Assembly (NCBI GenBank): GCA_949130485.1
Contig: OX422194.1
Location: 3,670,199 to 3,734,198 of the forward strand
Length of the DNA: 64,000 bases
Direction: 5' to 3'
Origin: Agelas oroides
Taxonomy: Eukaryota; Porifera; Demospongiae; Agelasida; Agelasidae
How positions within the stretch are numbered: position 1 is the stretch's first letter; each line of letters opens with the position of its first letter. The notes below the pieces were generated by a model. That model saw only the letters and a program-made list of their open reading frames with translations, was not told where the DNA came from and did not search any database. Shown here piece by piece: positions 40,884 to 52,066 of this stretch. The position numbers and the translations under genes were made by a program.

Positions 40884-40944
40884 GTATGGCACGCCACGCA
40901 TAACAAAATTATGAAGTCGACTTCAACATGCAGTAAGTACGTAT

Positions 40945-41273
40945 GTCGTTATATTGCGACTTACCAAGTCGTTATATCGCGACTTCCAGGTCGTTATATT
41001 GCGACTTACTAAGTCGTTATATCGCGACTTCCAAGTCGTTATATTGCGACTTACCAAGTCGTTATATCGCGACTTCCAAGTCGTTATATTGCAACTTACC
41101 AAGTCGTTATATTGCGACTTCGTATGTCGTTATATTGCGACTTACCAAGTCGTTATATCGCGACTTCCAAGTCGTTATATTGCGACTTACCAAGTCGTTA
41201 TATCGCGACTTACCAAGTCGTTATACTGCGACTTACCAAGTCGTTATATTGCGACTTCGTATGTCGTTATATT
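40945..41273 (+). repeat. Left TIR array of about 22-bp quasi-palindromes
   Basis: About 14 copies of AAGTCGTTATATCGCGACTT, alternating with a version reading TATATTGCG, are joined by ACC or CC spacers, so the period alternates 23 and 22 bp. Each unit is nearly its own reverse complement (AAGTCG...CGACTT). The array resumes at 44465-44520 after the LINE insertion. Confidence 0.95.
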
Positions 41274-41431
41274 ATAATAATATAATAATAATTTTAATGA
41301 CAAGAGAAGCCGGGGTGGCTTATAAGTCAATAAAGTATGAACTGTGTAATTTAAAGGCTAAATGAACAAACTTGGCTAAGGAGTTTACGACAGCTGTGTT
41401 TTCGGATGTTAACAGACGGATAAATTTGTCT

Positions 41432-44400
41432 CTAGTGGAGATACATGAAGCTTGGGTGGAATTTAACAATGATAGTGTACAGTTCATCCCTCAGGTCATT
41501 ATATACAGGACAGACACATACGAAATGGACTTCATCCTCGATGCAGTTGCATAATTTGCAAAGTCTCTGTTCTGGGGGGATGGAGCATGGTTTGTGGTAC
41601 CATAGATAATAGAGCCAAATGGATTGGCAACGGCAAAAAAATTTACGGCCAAACCCGGGCAAAACGCAGATGACGTCACGTCCTATCCTTGGTACGGCAC
41701 ACCCATTGAAGTTACGGTGAGCAGGCATGTCAGGAAATGCTTACTAACAGGTTTATCTCCTGTGCAGGGTATTGTACGGTAGGTCCAAGCGTATCTATCG
41801 ATTATTGCACAGTATCTGCATGCTCTGGTAAATAATTGTGCTATGCTTGGCTGTGAATTAATTGTTATGCAACGTAGAAACGCTAAAACAATAGTTTTGT
41901 AGTTTTTTCTGGAAACTAAACAAGGCTATCCCATGTTGCAAGCGGTCATAACGTGTAAGCAATAGCCAAGAGTGCAATAGAATGGCTTATTTATCTGTAA
42001 TACAACGCACAGTTTCGTGCGAGGCCTTGAAGGGTGTAAATAATGTGAAAAGTCTTGTAGTTTTCTAGAAAGATCGGTGCACTAGGTTAGGTCAAGTCTG
42101 CTGGTACAGTATTAGCAGTAGATTGGCAAGTGCAATGCTGACAAAAAAAGGGGTCTGCAGCGATTGTGTGCACTTTTCCCTGGCCTTCTGCACAGGTGGC
42201 TTCAGCAGTCTCAAAGAACACATCGATCTGTCCTGGTTGTCTCCAGGCCTACTGATAACTCCAAGGACCGTTTCGCACTCCATCCTTAACAGAAGCAGTC
42301 TGCCAGGCACTACTTGATATCTGGGGAAGCAGAAAGCAGACATAACTGTCGCTCTCGTGCAGTCGGCGCTTACAGTCATTGCCGCGTTCGTCTGCATCAC
42401 GTGACCGTAACGAGGATTGCACGTAAAATTATTGCCGTTGCCAATCCATTTGGCTCTATTATCTATGGTGGTACCTTCCCAGTTCTATCTGAAGCCTGTG
42501 ACAACTCACTCTCAACTTGGTGAGAGCTATCCGATACTTTGCTACCTTGACTTGAGAGAGGTAACTCTCCAGTTCGAATCGGGACTTGAACAGTCTGTAA
42601 GTTCGTAGTTTGTTTCCTGCTTCACCTCTCTTGCTAGTCTGTCTGCTAAGTTCGCTGTTCCAGAGCTGAATAAACTGATCTCTGTAGCGTATCATTACTT
42701 GCTCTATTTCTCTTCGTCCACATCCCTGTGGAGTGAATGCAAACGACATACCAGCCTTGTCAAATAGCTGTTTTACCTTTGTTACCCAGGTGGTTTTACC
42801 AGTTTGATGCATCCAAGTGGATAGATGAAAGGCCTCTCTGAGGAGATCTGGAATCTCCTCTGAGCAGAGTCTATTCCAGTAACACAATATCCTTTCTCTC
42901 CACAGGAGGTGAAGGGGAAGCTGTCCGAGCTCTCCACGTACGGCCATGTTTGTTGCACTTGGTGGCAAGTTTAAAATATATTTTAGAAAATGCATTTCTG
43001 TTGCCTCCAGCTCTGGATCCACTACATGTCCCCATAGTTCGCAACCGTAAGATAATACTGGCAGTATCATAACATCAAATAGCTTCAGTGCAATGGTGAT
43101 GGGTGGGTACTTTAACTTTACAAGTAATCTTTGTAGTGCAAATATTGCTTTCTTCCCTTGGTTGGCCTGGGCTTTCTGAGCTTTATTATAAACATGGTTT
43201 GTTGAGAGCCACACTCCCAAATATTTGTATTCCTGTACCATTTCCAGGTTAATACCCTCAAATGAGAAAGGTGACAGTAATCTTGGCTTTTTCCCAAAAG
43301 CACATACTTTGGTTTTGTCTATATTTACCTCTAATTTCCACTCTTCACAGAATTCCTCCAGTGATCTGAGATGTTTTCTCAAACCCTCCTCACTTGAAGA
43401 CATCAACACGATATCATCGGCATACATTAGTAGATCAATGGGTCTGTTCCACAGTCTGGTTCCCATTTTGTTTTTCGCAAGTTCAGCCTCTAGTCCACTG
43501 ATGAACAGGCTGAAAAGAAGAGGGCTCAGATTGCAGCCTTGCCTCACCCCCACTTCACAACGGAACTGGTCTGTGACCTCGTGATTTGACAGTTTCAGAC
43601 TTGACATGGCTTTTGAGTACATTGACTGCAGGATTGTCAAAGTTTGTTGACTAATTCCCAGTTGAACCAGCTTTTTCCATAAACAGTAATGATCAACTGA
43701 GTCAAACGCTTTTCTGAAGTCAACATAGCACAAAAAGAGTGTGCTTTTCTCATAGGATGCTCTCTCTATTAGTGTGTTCACTATAAATAAACAATCTGTA
43801 GTTCTTCTATTTTTGCGGAAACCAAACTGTGTTTCTGGTAGGAGTTGTCTTGCAGTTGCCCATTGTGTTATTCTATCGTATAGGATAGCTGTGAACAGCT
43901 TGCCCATTACATTTAAGAGAGTTATCCCTCGGTAGTTGTTCGGGTCATCTCTTGGACCTGATTTATGTAACGGGCATATAATACCTGTGGACCAACAGCT
44001 TGGGTATTCTCCAGATCTCATGACATTGTTGAATAGGATAGCCAGCATTTCGATTAGGGTGTTATCTAGGGCTTTGAATACTCCTGGTGGTATTCCATCC
44101 TCTCCAGGTGCTTTATTCACTTTTAGTTTATGTAGTACCTCTTCCACCTCTGCCACTGATATTTCCCTATCAAGGTCTGGTACACATACCCTTGAGGCAT
44201 TTGGTGGCTCATTCCGTTCATTACTTCTTTTCATGTTTAAGTTTTGGAGGTGTGACAGCAGCTCTTTGGGATTTACGCCTGTTTCAATATGTTTGTCTTT
44301 CTCCCTCAGGTGGTTAACAGTCTTCCAGAAGTCTCTTGGGTTTTGGTTGTGGGAAGTAAGAAGATTTTTATGGAAGTTTGTCTCCACTACACATTTTCTG

Positions 44401-44460
44401 GCTTTAATTATTTTTTTGTAAACTTTCTTTTCTTTGAAGTATTGCTCTCTTAAGTTTGTA
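41432..44460 (-). pseudogene. LINE reverse transcriptase ORF, truncated and split by a MITE
   Basis: From the 5' breakpoint near 44460 the frame stays open to about 42472 and encodes a complete RT: KAPGEDGIPPGVFK, FRKNRRTTDCLF, DFRKAFDSVDH, RQGCNLSPLLF and the catalytic YADD. The thumb and a C-terminal region follow. The MITE then interrupts it after GRYH. Beyond the MITE the frame resumes as HKPCSIPPEQRLCKLC with a Cys/His knuckle and ends at 41432. With one TSD copy removed, the two parts join in frame, so the ORF was intact when the MITE landed. The clade is not assigned; the RT looks Jockey/CR1-group-like. Confidence 0.85.
41600..42468. mobile_element. 869-bp MITE (CCATAGATAATAGAGC ends) inside the LINE ORF
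   Basis: The termini CCATAGATAATAGAGCC and GGCTCTATTATCTATGG are inverted, and the arms extend about 50 bp (GGATTGGCAACGGCAA). TGGTA flanks both sides (41595-41599, 42469-42473), a 5-bp target duplication. The interior resembles the element at 54303-56953. No transposase was recognised. Confidence 0.92.
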
Positions 44461-44464
44461 TCTA

Positions 44465-44520
44465 GCGACTTACTAAGTCGTTATATTGCGACTTCCAAGT
44501 CGTTATATTGCGACTTCCAA
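44465..44520 (+). repeat. Remainder of the left TIR array beyond the LINE
   Basis: GCGACTTACTAAGTCG continues the quasi-palindromic series cut at 41273. The array then dissolves into TGAAGTCGCAGTCG at the inner edge. Confidence 0.85.
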
Positions 44521-44562
44521 TGAAGTCGCAGTCGTTCCTAGGCGATTGCAGGTTAGATAGCT

Positions 44563-46428
44563 ATATGGCACGTGATATATCACGTGCCATAGCACAACGA
44601 CTATGGCAGCTATATCTCGCGGAGTTGTGGGGATGTGAGAGATCTTTTGAGGAGTTGTCGACTTTCATGCAGGATGCAGACAGGCAAGCGAGTACTGCAA
44701 ACCAGGCCTATTCCGAGTATGCCCTTGAACGTCTGCAAATCTCAATTGTGAGTGTACTGTATCTGATGTGCTGAATCATCTGCGAAGTATCCCTCCCAGT
44801 GGTGACCAGCAACACGGCTCAAGTTGTTGATTACTTTTGTTGTGAGTTATCTGCACTTTTCCGGTGTTTGAGAGACATTGCTCAGCAGTGGCAATTGCAC
44901 CTAGACCAGTACCTACCACACAGTGCTGCCACTTCTTTTGTTGCACCAATTGTCAACACACCTGCCACACAAAGACACCCTGGAAGACCAAGATTTGACA
45001 TTACAAAGGACTGTGTATCGCAGGCGTTCGGAATATGGGTTGCTTGATACCACTTTGACTGGGAATATCACAGATGCAGAACTCAAGGTTGTTGTTGAGC
45101 AGATGCGTAGAGATTTACCATGCAACACTTGGAGAAACTATGGTATGGGGTCACCTAAAATCTATGGGATTTAGAGTGATGAGGGAAAGAGTTTGGCTTG
45201 CCATAAGGGAGACTGATCCTCTGCATACTGCTCTGCGCTGGAGAGGTGATCTGATAGGAAGAAGCCCCTACTCAGTGCCTGGCCCAAACTCACCTTAGCA
45301 CATTGGTAATACTCTTGTGAATGTACCTGTATCATAGACATGATTTCTAAGGACAATTGCCGTAGAAGGTAATCTGCTGCTCACAAAAATATCACTTGTT
45401 TGTTGCCATTGGCATTGTTACTCTGCTGCACACTCGTAACAATACAGACGGCAATAAACTTGTGATATTTCCGGTATAGCTTTGTACTATGGTGATACTT
45501 ATATGCATAGTTAAAACTGTCCTAAGGCACACATCAATGTTTTATGTGAAACTGCTAAGACTGGTCATTTTGTTGTCTAAATTTGTGAGTTCAAGCTTGT
45601 GTGTCATAACTATCGTGTGTGCTAGTAGGTCAGTATGATAGCTTATTGATGAGGAGTACCAATGCTATTTTATACAGATGGCCATCACAAGTTGGTGAGG
45701 TGGCATTTTGTTACTCACTGTGCTATTGATGGTTACAGCAGACTGGTGCTGTTCCTAAAGTGTTCGAACAACAACAGAGCTAGCACAGTGTATGACTCAT
45801 TCCTACAGTCAGTACAGCAGTATGGGTTGCCATCAAGGGTTCGTTGTGACCAAGGAGGAGAAAACATGCTTGTTGCCCACCATATGATACATCATCGTGG
45901 CAGTGTTAGTAGGAGGTTCTGTACACAACCAGCGCATTGAAAGACTGTGGAGGGACATACACCGCTGTGTTACTTCACTTTTTTTATCGATTTTTAAAAT
46001 TATTTTCTTGAGCACCATGGGCATCTCGATCCAATTAGTGATACTCACTTGTATACTCTTCATTATGTGTATTTGCCACGGATCAATAGAGCATTACAGC
46101 AATTCCACCAAGCCTGGAACCATCATGGAGTTCGCACAGAAGGAGGGAGAACACCTAACCAGTTATTCACTGCAGGATCTCTACAACTTCGTAACTCTGG
46201 TTTGGCAGCGCTTGACTTCTTCAATAATGTTGCTGATGACTATGGTACTGATGAAGATGGCATTGCTAACCCTGACAATGAAGGTGTGGAGATTCCACCC
46301 TCTGAAGTCCAGCTGACTGAGGAACAGGTGAATGAGCTGCAGCAAATTGTCAACCCACTAACCGATTGTGATGACATGGCAGTTGACTTGTATTTGCAAA
46401 TCCTTGAGTTTGTTCAGTCTGTGATTTA
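44563..46428 (+). pseudogene. Integrase-core (DDE) transposase, heavily decayed
   Basis: An ATG in the palindrome ATGGCACGTGATATATCACG opens a helical N-terminal frame (44563-44750). After an apparent intron comes a segment ending HPGRPRFDIT, then a helix-turn-helix piece TVYRRRSEYGLL. Further on come HTALRWRG and YSVPGPNS, and the catalytic core DGHHKLVRW, AIDGYSRLV, RVRCDQGGEN, SVHNQRIERLWRD and LYTLHYVYLPRINRAL, ending at a TAA near 46428. This order is typical of the integrase-core proteins widespread in fish, cnidarian and sponge transposons. Damage: a deletion between PRFDIT and TVYRRR, frameshifts near 45110, 45905 and 45990, and TAG in place of the conserved Trp at 45300 just before an intron (45309-45671 region). 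Domain family is sure, superfamily name (IS3EU-like?) is not. Confidence 0.78.
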
Positions 46429-47165
46429 AGTGATATTTGTGCTTGTATTACCGTTCTGTTTAGTTTAGCATACATGCATTTGTACTTGGCATTATTTTGA
46501 ACTGAAACAGCTGGTAATGACTAAACTGCATCATCTCAAGGTTGAACATAATCATAATACTAATGTAAGAATGATACTCAAAGCATCACAATGTACAGTA
46601 GACTCAGTTGAAGTGCATCTTCACTTCAGAACTGCAAGACAAACTCTTGTGCAACCTCAGGGTAGGCAAGATATGTGGTTGGAAGTTCACGAGTGTTGCC
46701 TGCATGTATGGCTGATTGCATGTCTCATTGTTCTCAACATTTTGTAGAAAGCTGGCTGTTGTTTGAGGACTTCTACACATCCAATTAACCCAGCACATGC
46801 TAGTACATACTGGTTCCTAGTCTCATTCTCATGCATATCCCAATTCTAGCCCAGCCTATAGCAGTACATACTGGCTCACAGTCTCATTCCCATTCCAGGC
46901 CCTTTTGCAAACAAGACTAACTGCATAGCCTTATATATAGTCTCATGCAAGATCACGTCAGATAAAACGAGAATGAAAGAACATGATCATGAGAATGAGT
47001 TACGAGCATCCATGGCCCATGCACCTAGACTACATACACACTCTCATGCAAGATCACAACACAATCAGTTGAGTATGAAAGACCATGGTTAGAGTTATAA
47101 AGCATCCATGGCCCATGCACCAAGACTACAGGCAGCTTGGCCTGTAAGAACAGCAAGTAACATGG
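46429..47165. other. Interval between transposase pseudogene and palindrome
   Basis: No ORF of known family is present. Loosely repeated segments (CTCATGCAAGATCAC, CATCCATGGCCCATGCACC) occur twice, near 46946 and 47041 and near 47009 and 47101, so a tandem duplication of about 95 bp is likely. The stretch is internal to the large transposon. Confidence 0.55.
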
Positions 47166-47300
47166 TAAGTCGCGATATAACGACTTGGTAAGTCGCAATA
47201 TAACGACTTGGAAGTCGCGATATAACGACTTGGTAAGTCGCAATATAACGACTTGGAAGTCGCGCGATATAACGACTTGGTAAGTCGCAATATAACGACA
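47166..47300 (+). repeat. Inner quasi-palindrome array next to the giant palindrome
   Basis: Six units of the AAGTCGCGATATAACGACTT type (same family as the TIR arrays) abut the left edge of the palindrome at 47301. Confidence 0.9.
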
Positions 47301-49271
47301 TAATGTGGTGGCCCGGTAGTGTCAAAAACGACTTTCGCATGTCACATTGAATCCGGCTCCGCAATCGCTAAATTAGATATACGGCATTGCGTTATTCGTA
47401 AATATACGGTAGCGCGATCGGTCAGTGATCACCCTGTGCGGTCACCGATCGGAGTGGTGCGGTCTGTGATCACCCCGTGCGGTCACCGATCGGAGTGGTG
47501 CGGTCTGTGATCTACCTGTGCGGTCACCGATCGAGGTTGTGCGGTCTGTGATCTACATGTGCGGTCACCGATCGAGGTGGTGCGGTCTGTGATCACCCTG
47601 TGCGGTCACCGATCGAGGTTGTGCGGTCAGTGATCTACCTGTGCGGTCATCGATTGAGGTTGTGCGGTCTGTGATCACCTTGTGCGGTCACCGATCGGAG
47701 TGGTGCGGTCTGTGATCTACCTGTGCGGTCACCGATCGAGGTTGTGCGGTCTGTGATCACCCTGTGCGGTGACCGATCGGAGTGGTGCGGTCTGTGATCT
47801 ACCTGTGCGGTCACCGATCGAGGTTGTGCGGTCTGTGATCACCTTGTGCGGTCACCGATCGGAGTGGTGCGGTCTGTGATCTACCTGTGCGGTCACCGAT
47901 CGAGGTTGTGCGGTCTGTGATCACCCTGTGCGGTGACCGATCGGAGTGGTGCGGTCTGTGATCACCCCGTGCGGTGACCGATCGGAGTGGTGCGGTCTGT
48001 GATCACCCTGTGCGGTCACCGATCGAGGTTGTGCGGTCTGTGATCACCCTGTGCGGTCACCGATCACTCAGTGCGCTCACCGATCTGCCCTGTGCGGTCA
48101 CCGATCTGCTCTGTGCGGTCACCGATCTGCTCTGTGCGGTGACCGATCACTCAGTGCGCTCACCGATCTGCCCTGTGCGGTGACCGATCACTCAGTGCGC
48201 TCACCGATCTGCCCTGTGCGGTCACCGATCTGCTCTGTGCGGTCACCGATCTGCTCTGTGCGGTGACCGATCACTCAGTGCGCTCACCGATCTGCCCTGT
48301 GCGGTGACCGATCACTCAGTGCGCTCACCGATCTGCCCTGTGCGGTGACCGATCACTCAGTGCGCTCACCGATCTGCCCTGTGCGGTGACCGATCACTCA
48401 GTGCGCTCACCGATCTGCCCTGTGCGGTGACCGATCACTCAGTGCGCTCACCGATCTGCCCTGTGCGGTGACCGATCACTCAGTGCGGTCATCGATCTCT
48501 CTGTGCGGTCACCGAACAGGGTAGATCGGTGAGCGCACGCTAAGATCGGTCACCGCACAGGGCAGATCGGTGAGCGCACTGAGTGATCGGTCACCGCACA
48601 GGGCAGATCGGTGAGCGCACTGAGTGATCGGTCACCGCACAGGGCAGATCGGTGAGCGCACTGAGTGATCGGTCACCGCACAGAGCAGATCGGTGACCGC
48701 ACAGAGCAGATCGGTGACCGCACAGGGCAGATCGGTGAGCGCACTGAGTGATCGGTGACCGCACAGGGTGATCACAGACCGCACAACCTCGATCGGTGAC
48801 CGCACAGGTAGATCACAGACCGCACAACCTCGATCGGTGACCGCACAGGTAGATCACAGACCGCACAACCTCGATCGGTGACCGCACAGGTAGATCACAG
48901 ACCGCACCACTCCGATCGGTGACCGCACGGGGTGATCACAGACCGCACCACTCCGATCGGTCACCGCACAGGGTGATCACAGACCGCACAACCTCGATCG
49001 GTGACCGCACAGGTAGATCACAGACCGCACAACCTCGATCGGTGACCGCACAGGTAGATCACAGACCGCACCACTCCGATCGGTGACCGCACTGGGTGAT
49101 CACAGACCGCACCACTCCGATCGGTGACCGCACAGGGTGATCACTGACCGATCGCGCTACCGTATATTTACGAATAACGCTATGCCGTATATCTAATATA
49201 GCGATTGCGGAGCCGAATTCAATGTGACATGCGAAAGTCGTTTTTGACACTACCGGGCCACCACAACATAA
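47301..49271. repeat. 1.97-kb palindrome made of 41-bp GATC repeats
   Basis: The outer arms (TGGTGGCCCGGTAGTGTCAA at 47305 and its complement at about 49248-49267) match for about 120 bp through ACTTTCGCATGTCACATTG and TATACGGTAGCGCGATCGG. Inside are head-to-tail copies of a 41-bp unit made of 21- and 20-bp halves, each with GATC and GCGGT: GATCGGAGTGGTGCGGTCTG then GATCACCCTGTGCGGTCACC. Towards the middle the variant GATCACTCAGTGCGCTCACC dominates. Orientation inverts near 48512. The left arm holds about 27 units and the right about 15, so the arms have changed length since inversion. Confidence 0.93.
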
Positions 49272-49541
49272 GAAGTCGCAATATAACGACTTGGTAAGTC
49301 GCAGTATAACGACTTGGTAAGTCGCAGTATAACGACTTGGTAAGTCGCGATATAACGACTTGGTAAGTCGCAATATAACGACTTGGAAGTCGCGATATAA
49401 CGACTTGGTAAGTCGCAATATAACGACATACGAAGTCGCAATAACGACTTGGAAGTCGCGATATAACGACTTGGTAAGTCGCAATATAACGACCTGGAAG
49501 TCGCGATATAACGACTTGGTAAGTCGCAATATAACGACATA
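49272..49541 (-). repeat. Right TIR array of quasi-palindromes
   Basis: The reverse complement of this segment follows the left array almost unit by unit, including the odd GACTTCGTATGTCG spacer and the CCAGGTCG variant. One unit here has lost two bases (AAGTCGCAATAACGACTT). Confidence 0.93.
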
Positions 49542-49895
49542 CGTACTTACTGCATGTTGAAGTCGACTTCATAATTTTGTTATGCGTGGCGTGCCATACC
49601 GTTCGAGCTCCATTTTTCAGTCGCCGGATACGGTGGACTCCGCCTTCCTTTCCGTGGCATAACAGAGTATCTGCGTGGCTTAGTCTCCGTGTACGAGCGT
49701 CCGATTATGGCTGGTGTCCGAATATTGATCGTTTCCTCATATTATGGACGTACGTAAGTCTTTCCGTAAATTCTAATTCCACTCTAATTTAACGTGATTT
49801 ATTTAAAGTATTGCACCATAGACAATGATTGCACCTATAGTTGAACTTTAATATATTTGCACGCCTTCCAAGTGGATTTTTGGTTGTTCGCGAGT

Positions 49896-50909
49896 ATGGA
49901 TACTAACCCAGAATCAGTAGAGAAGAGAGAGAAAAGGTTGCGGAGTCGGAGAGAACGAGAGAGGGCCCGCCGTGCTTCCGAGACAGCGGAGCAAAGGGAA
50001 GAAAGGTTGAGAAAACGGAGAATGAGGGACAGGGCTAGGCGGGCTTCACAAGCTACCGAAGATAGGGAGGCACGACTGCAGCAAAGAAGGTACAGACTGG
50101 ATGCTGAGACTGCCGAGGAGAGAGAGGCCAGGCTGCAGCTGAGAAGGGACAGGCTGGCAGCTGAGACTCCCGACGAAAGAGAGGCCAGGCTGCAGTATAT
50201 GAGGGACAGGCTGGCAGCTGAGACTCCCGAGGAAAGAGAGGCCAGGCTGCAGCATATGAGTACTTACCAGCATGAGAGATTGGCAGCTGAGACTGCCGAG
50301 GAGAGAGAGGTCAGGTTACAGTGTGACAGACAGAGACACAGAGATCAACAGCTTGTGCAGTCACAGCTCCCACTGTTTGAACAGTATTCCATTCGAGCTA
50401 AGATGCATAAGTTTCATGCACACTTCGCTACGCTAGATCTGTCAACATGTACCACCTGTTTGGAGAGTTTTCCTGGTCTTCAGCTTCACTTGGGGTCTGC
50501 TGAGTGTCTGCGCTGTAGCCGGGACAAGCATATACCGAAGTTATACTCCTCTGCCAACAACATGGATACCATCTGAACTGCAGGTTGGTAATAATATTAC
50601 TGTTATGTTATCCTATGTAACTGATGTGTTCCTTCTTACCATCTGAACTGCAGGTTGGTAATAATATTACTGTTATGTTATCCTATGTAACTGATGTGTT
50701 CCTTCTTACCATCTGAACTGCAGGTTGGTAATAATATTACTGTTATGTCATCCTATGTAACTGATATGTGTTCCTTCTTACTATCTGAACTGCAGGTTGG
50801 TAATAATATTACTGTTATGTCATCCTATGTAACTGATATGTGTTCCTTCTTACAGGGATTAACACAAGTGGAAGAAATGTTGATTTCTGGTGTGCTACCA
50901 ATCACGTAA
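49896..50909 (+). pseudogene. N-terminal part of a Helitron-type ORF
   Basis: ATG at 49896 starts an Arg/Glu-rich helical repeat region in which a 17-20-residue unit (ETAEEREARLQLRRDRLAA type) is iterated about seven times. A Cys-containing domain follows: STCTTCLESF, SAECLRCSRDKHIPKLYSSANNM. This combination precedes the Rep/helicase region in animal Helitron polyproteins as I recall them. The frame then breaks: the expected PSELQ-GLTQVEEMLIS is present but in another frame and split by an intron-like insert (50584-50855), and it stops at 50909. The rest of the polyprotein is absent. Confidence 0.6.
50568..50855 (+). repeat. Four tandem copies of an exon-end plus intron unit
   Basis: The 70-72-bp unit begins ACCATCTGAACTGCAG, then GTTGGTAATAATATTAC, and starts at 50568, 50638, 50708 and 50780. 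The last copy ends in a clean acceptor, TTCCTTCTTACAG, directly before GGATTAACACAAG, which continues the coding sequence. Confidence 0.92.
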
Positions 50910-51568: not shown

Positions 51569-52066
51569 ATGGAGTCGTACAGCAATTCTTCAGCAAGAGT
51601 CCCCGAGTCATCACGGAACAGAGAAGACAGACTGCAGCGTAGAAGAGAGCGAGAGAGAGCTCGTCGTGCCTCTGAAACCGCGGAACAGAGAGAGGAACGG
51701 CTGAGAGTGCGGAGAGCAAGAGATAGGGCTAGACGCGCCGCACAGACTGCCGAAGAGAGAGACGCCAGATTGCGGCAAATACGCGATAACCGACATGCTT
51801 GCGCATTCGAGCTCACGCTCGCCCCCACAATGCTGTGCATTCACCTAGTTTATACATATGGTACGTGCGTATTCCGTATATATACATCCTGCCCCATTTG
51901 TGCGCGATGCAATATTTCCACATTGCAAGTTAGTTCATGTAACCACTGTTGCTCAAGGGACAAGACTAGCAGGACAGAAAGGCTGAACAGTGGGAACCAA
52001 CGTAACAGGGACTTGAAAAAGGCGAGGAAAGGAGGCACGACTAGCAAGACGGAAGCTGATTATTAA
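51569..52066 (+). pseudogene. Third Helitron-type N-terminal copy
   Basis: A frame starting MESYSNSSARVPESSRNRED continues with RERERARRASETAEQREERL, the same repeat as the 49896 ORF, for about 75 residues. It then loses similarity. A further CNHCCSRDKTSRTERL echo near its end suggests the Cys-domain start is present but altered. Confidence 0.5.

Follow-up and report, generated by a model that had tools for sequence, protein, structure and literature searches.

An IS3EU-type transposon of the sponge Agelas oroides with two nested insertions and terminal arrays of quasi-palindromic repeats

The stretch of DNA analyzed here (hereinafter, the window; C12:3670199-3734198, 64 kb of the 259-Mb genome of the demosponge Agelas oroides) contains a transposon with terminal inverted repeats (TIRs) that include tandem arrays of short quasi-palindromic units. 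This element, denoted copy A of the focal family, is an IS3EU-type transposon with two nested insertions, that is, a member of a known superfamily with an unusual, recurrent end architecture (Table 1; all coordinates are positions in the window, unless another locus is named). An earlier note on this DNA described an 8.7-kb transposon of a seemingly undescribed family that was bounded by GTATGG and comprised exact inverse ends, mirrored arrays of quasi-palindromes, an integrase-core transposase relic and a giant palindrome. The inverse ends, the arrays and the relic are borne out by the present analysis; the palindrome exists, too, but as a separate element, and the size, the terminus and the supposed novelty of the family all have to be revised.

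Table 1. Features of copy A and of the elements inserted in it
Feature	Positions	Strand	Evidence
Focal IS3EU-like transposon, copy A (two nested insertions inside)	40885..49598	+	Tips TATGGCACGCC / GGCGTGCCATA, first 125 bp identical
Left tip of copy A, including GAAGTCGACTTC (two abutting half-sites)	40885..40941	+	Tip matches across the genome
Left TIR array of copy A, 14 units of 22/23 bp (AAGTCGTTATATYGCGACTT)	40942..41271	+	
Nested LINE with a TAA-type tail, boundaries approximate; reverse transcriptase ORF at 42459-44387	41272..44463	-	RVT_1 E 3.8e-40; junction sequence
Rest of the left array, beyond the LINE	44464..44520	+	
Transposase relic, with fragments of the rva_4 DDE core at 45662-45940, 45897-46316 and 46049-46429	44564..46429	+	PF24764 E 1.2e-33, 8.9e-09 and 2.7e-16
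Inner part of the right TIR array, separated from the outer part by element P	47163..47303	+	
Nested foldback element P ("giant palindrome"), 41-bp units, tip TGTGGTGGCCCGG; separate from the focal element	47304..49265	none	TSD ACATAA at 47298-47303 and 49266-49271
Outer right TIR array of copy A, 11 units	49272..49540	-	
Right tip of copy A	49541..49598	-	

The two ends of copy A are identical over 125 bp inward of TATGG and, overall, match in 307 of the 329 aligned columns. The left array consists of 14 units (40945-41255) at a spacing of 22 or 23 bp, and the outer right array, of 11 units (49275-49538) with the same spacing apart from a single one of 43. In the unit AAGTCGTTATATTGCGACTT, 16 of the 20 bases (8 of the 10 pairs) pair across the centre. 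The half-sites AAGTCG/CGACTT occur 12/14 and 13/10 times in the two TIRs of copy A, compared with 5/5 times in the remaining 55,285 bases of the window. The leading G of GTATGG belongs to the flank, as the last base of the target, and therefore the element starts and ends at the true termini TATGGCACGCC..GGCGTGCCATA, next to which a 6-bp target-site duplication (TSD) is found in the family. An alternative reading, with a 4-bp TSD adjoining GTATGG, was considered and dropped; the 6-bp TSD next to TATGG fits better and agrees with two related families, X and Y, described below. The flanks of copy A itself, CGCTCG and CCGTTC, agree at 2 of 6 positions, so that no intact 6-bp TSD is present. The 8.7-kb size is inflated by a long interspersed nuclear element (LINE) within the left array and by the giant palindrome, which is the separate foldback element P; without these nested insertions, the focal element measures about 3.4-3.6 kb.

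The earlier note would have given up its transposon if the genome held only one copy or if the two ends occurred independently of each other; the first of these does not apply. The left TIR has at least 55 matches in the genome, and the first 62 bp have at least 35 tip matches, including the two in the window. When these tips are paired by position, 28 of the 35 form 14 inverted pairs and 7 are single, so that the focal ends mostly travel together. The target duplications that the note proposed to seek among the copies are present in most of the short ones. They were read for 13 focal units, with copies C and D, which represent two pairs in the tip count, treated as one unit through their outer ends. 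In six short copies (387-431 bp), identical 6-mers adjoin TATGG and CCATA; the flanking 6-mers of the short copies L044 and L052 agree at 5 and 4 of 6 positions, respectively, and those of the 4-kb copy L051, at 1 of 6. In 156 pairings of non-cognate flanks, agreement at all 6 positions never occurred, and six pairings agreed at 5. Focal copies have TATGG..CCATA termini, with single-base variants in E, L049, L050, L051 and others. The arrays comprise 14/11 units per end in A, 22/17 in B and 11/18 in E. Short focal copies L044-L050 show telomere-like CCCTAA or TTAGGG runs, in both insertion orientations.

All four long focal units lack a TSD (the flanks agree at 2 of 6 positions in A, 4 in B, 2 in C+D and 2 in E), whereas the long copies of families X and Y retain theirs. 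Copy E (3,410 bp, on C19) has no large insertion between the arrays and the core, and copy F, on the same contig, matches the right-hand 2,007 bp of E at 99.6% identity. CGGACT occurs both in the left flank of E and in the right flank of F (L041 and L042, which lie about 348 kb from each other), and the same satellite-like repeat adjoins the two elements, so that either a split insertion or a misassembly could be involved. There is one further perfect cross-pair among those listed, namely, CGCGCG at the left of B and the right of L053, presumably, a chance match in GC-rich sequence; hence a shared 6-mer alone is weak evidence. Copies C and D form a head-to-head fusion, and the tips at the junction (around 4217-4226 of L040) are incomplete. 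These rearranged long copies could be due to ectopic recombination, to aberrant transposition or to misassembly.

The transposase relic of copy A, which corresponds to the Pfam family rva_4, is broken and lacks the segment that encodes a helix-turn-helix (HTH) in copies C and D; copy A is a decayed, inactive copy. A search of the other copies for an intact transposase, as suggested in the earlier note, found two uninterrupted frames in the sister copy C (C13, L040), of 281 and 261 amino acids, which were kept separate in the analysis and are probably divided by an intron. The 281-residue frame matches HTH_23 with 24.2 bits (the cut-off is 24.6), and the 261-residue frame matches rva_4 with 257.7 bits. 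The C-terminal part of the transposase retrieves 68 matches in the genome, mostly, distant paralogs. The rva_4 domain is present in all four uninterrupted stop-to-stop paralog frames that were scanned, and an HTH family cut-off is passed by three of these (L033, L028 and L037) but not by L023. The frames from L028 (family X) and L033 (family Y) also show matches to transposase models of IS481 and IS3, with scores far below the membership cut-offs. The transposase alignment includes the D, D and E columns, and the Pfam matches of the transposases include neither a zinc-finger family nor THAP. The predicted structure of the family Y protein is of low confidence, with only putative helical N-terminal bundles, of moderate confidence, visible; a sequence search against solved structures yielded weak integrase matches. 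At the start of the relic lies a perfect 28-bp palindrome, TATGGCACGTGATATATCACGTGCCATA (44564-44591), which both begins and ends with TATGGCACG, the tip word of the element itself.

Arrays of this kind recur in other rva_4 families with TATGG tips. Families X (L028/L029) and Y (L033/L036), with transposases 57-58% identical to each other, have tips of the TATGG..CCATA form, TATGGGGCGCC and TATGGGGTGCC, and 20-bp arrays at both ends that are unlike the focal array in sequence. From 16 query matches for X and 65 for Y (many of the latter being array units), 8 tip pairs were obtained and all were examined; a 6-bp TSD is present in 7 of these, the exception being the X copy on C9. Family Z (L014/L058), which is 52% identical to the window transposase over 126 amino acids, has the tip TATGGCACGCCGTTCG and a 21-bp array of 3.6 copies at one end; its second end was not found. 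Family V (L018/L021) has a TATGGCGCG tip at the 5' end, the one end seen, with no array there. Altogether, among the five families with TATGG tips, arrays are present at both ends in three, at the sole end seen in one, and absent from the end seen in one. No TATGG tip was found in L023/L025, nor was a TATGG-type tip seen in L031/L034, where the end was placed by copy comparison and no TSD was read because merely two matches were found. TATGGNNNGCC also occurs as a word in L037 and in the gene of the L018 family, but these occurrences were not accepted as tips. When 26 paralog loci, with flanks of at least 1.5 kb, were scanned for repeats, the scan also detected a 20-bp array of 6.8 copies in L038, where a tip was not sought, and other periods in L017/L022, L025, L027, L035 and L037; no 20-21-bp arrays were detected in the remaining paralog loci, the ends of which are mostly beyond the scanned sequence.

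The two nested elements have histories of their own. Element P is ruled out as a part of the focal element by its own TSD and its many copies elsewhere: its tips have 36 matches in the genome, including the two of the window copy, which resolve by position into 17 copies and 2 single tips, with 35 of the 36 at 95-100% identity. In the 12 copies examined, the flanking duplications agree at 6 of 6 positions in 8, at 5 in 2, at 4 in one and at 3 in one. P is an independent foldback family, apparently a recent one. No transposase or autonomous partner was found for P, the ORFs (open reading frames) of more than 90 amino acids in three longer copies being listed only, without a protein-family search. 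TG..CA ends with a 6-bp TSD, like those of P, are given for some GingerRoot elements in the excerpted text of PMC10045372. The 3' part of the LINE has 41 matches in the genome, including the one in the window, and the LINE region gave no match to copy E at the thresholds used. Copy D contains a related LINE piece that lacks 41602-42467 of the window, so that the LINE stretch is perhaps not one simple insertion; read by eye, an inverted repeat, formed by TAATAGAGCCAAATGGATTGGCAACGGCAA and its complement, borders this segment. TAA-type tails are seen in two LINE copies (the one in the window and one at about 7481-8703 of L040) that lie in the TTATAT/ATATAA centre of TIR units, in different focal copies and at opposite ends, and a target preference of the LINE for these centres is possible. 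Just beyond copy A, two ORFs (49857-50576 and 51569-52066) encode tandem arginine-rich repeats; the first of these ORFs matches STPRs (PF21107).

We think it likely that copy A belongs to an IS3EU-type family of DDE transposons, with TATGG..CCATA termini, a 6-bp TSD and a transposase that combines rva_4 with an N-terminal HTH, in which the arrays would function as end-recognition sites, helpful but dispensable when long. The HTH of the transposase would bind the tips and the AAGTCG half-sites, and strand transfer staggered by 6 bp would produce the TSD. With a period of about 20-23 bp, that is, about two DNA turns per unit, the repeated binding sites would lie on one helix face and might raise the specificity of end recognition or keep a multimeric synaptic complex together, an idea put forward for Galileo. 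Unequal exchange might lengthen and shorten the arrays, and long ones would be helpful without being required. A multi-site binding platform, such as the earlier note suggested for a dimeric protein, is our best guess at the role of the arrays, made plausible by the HTH matches in the transposases, the recurrence of arrays in other families and the Galileo precedent. The short focal copies weigh against this reading: with 1-3 units per end, they transposed with perfect or nearly perfect TSDs, so that long arrays are not essential. More tentatively, such platforms, phased and specific to each family, might have arisen or turned over repeatedly in this IS3EU lineage, the dyad arrays of about 20-23 bp co-evolving with the HTH of each transposase, such that each family mobilizes its own ends only.

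The wide variation of unit numbers, from 1-4 per end in the eight short copies to 22, together with the TSDs agreeing at 5 or 6 of 6 positions in seven of these eight, speaks for the arrays being neutral, satellite-like expansions within the TIRs, generated by slippage and gene conversion, with the role in transposition confined to the tip-proximal units. This is a serious contender, even if we would not put it at even odds: the unrelated element P also bears large arrays, without palindromic excess, and an array is missing from the one end of family V that was seen, but four rva_4 families carry differing repeats with a 20-23-bp period at the same site, just inside the tip, and palindromic cores, of varying strength, are present in the arrays of all four. 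Control of expression rather than synapsis, with the arrays acting as a promoter, an enhancer or sites of autorepression by the transposase or a host factor, appears unlikely: one array does lie upstream of the transposase gene, and repeated dyads are typical regulator sites, yet arrays occur also at the 3' end in the focal family, X and Y.

At the level of classification, the alternative is that these elements represent an undescribed superfamily. A literature search, mostly at the level of listings, showed no family that joins such TIR arrays to an rva_4 transposase. This alternative is nevertheless highly improbable, given that the termini and the TSD match IS3EU and the transposase has an IS3/IS481-like affinity. 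According to the excerpted descriptions, IS3EU elements have TA..TA termini and a TSD of usually 6 bp (Kojima and Bao; PMC10045372) or, in a study of fungal TET/JBP, TIRs ending in TAYGG..CCRTA and 6-bp TSDs (PMC12730594). The focal family, X and Y have such termini; the 6-bp TSD is perfect in 6 of the 8 short focal copies, with 5 of 6 positions agreeing in one more, and is present in 7 of the 8 X/Y pairs, although not in the four long focal units, L051 and L052. The transposase, with rva_4 and an HTH and with IS481/IS3 matches below the cut-offs, is of the expected type, that is, a DDE transposase of IS3/IS481 affinity without an HHCC domain. Because the termini, the 6-bp TSD and the rva_4 transposase match the published IS3EU signature, the superfamily is very probably one already described.

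Placement of the arrays in an IS3EU-type family, with end recognition as their likely role, has several implications. The Pfam family rva_4, named merely "Integrase core domain", is now tied to termini of the IS3EU type and to 6-bp duplications. Several families within an integrase-like superfamily also have the long repetitive TIRs that are known mainly in Foldback and Galileo, and the array-bearing families lend themselves naturally to a comparative study of the reasons for which transposons build such ends with multiple sites. A note of caution is also in order: what looks like one large, exotic transposon can in fact be a nest of three mobile elements.

Like the focal arrays, the ends of Ac/Ds and En/Spm contain many short sites for the transposase or an accessory protein; these elements differ in having hAT and CACTA transposases and repeats that do not form one tandem TIR array. 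In Galileo and Foldback, as described in excerpts of PMC3688188 and PMC4168063, the TIRs are likewise long, internally repetitive and restructured among copies, and the Galileo repeats contain binding sites for the THAP domain of the transposase, but these elements have a P-superfamily THAP transposase, a TSD of 7-8 bp and repeats of about 140 bp (in D. willistoni); membership in this group is ruled out by the combination of rva_4 and HTH, with no THAP listed, and by the 6-bp TSD. Ginger1 and Ginger2 are eukaryotic TIR transposons with an integrase-like DDE transposase but, in the excerpted account of PMC2836005, have TGTNR termini and a TSD of 4 bp (5 bp in TDD-4 and TDD-5), and are ruled out by the TATGG termini and the 6-bp TSD. 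The termini and the TSD also rule out IS481EU, for which the excerpts of PMC10045372 give TNT..AYA termini and a TSD of about 4, 15 or 25 bp. The closest known systems are IS3EU and GingerRoot, an assignment made from published descriptions rather than from comparison with Repbase proteins. The excerpts of PMC10045372 and PMC12730594 make no mention of long TIR arrays of 20-23-bp quasi-palindromes, but they describe the features that these elements share with the focal family, namely, TA..TA termini (TAYGG..CCRTA), a 6-bp TSD, an IS3/IS481-related DDE transposase and TIRs of more than 30 bp.
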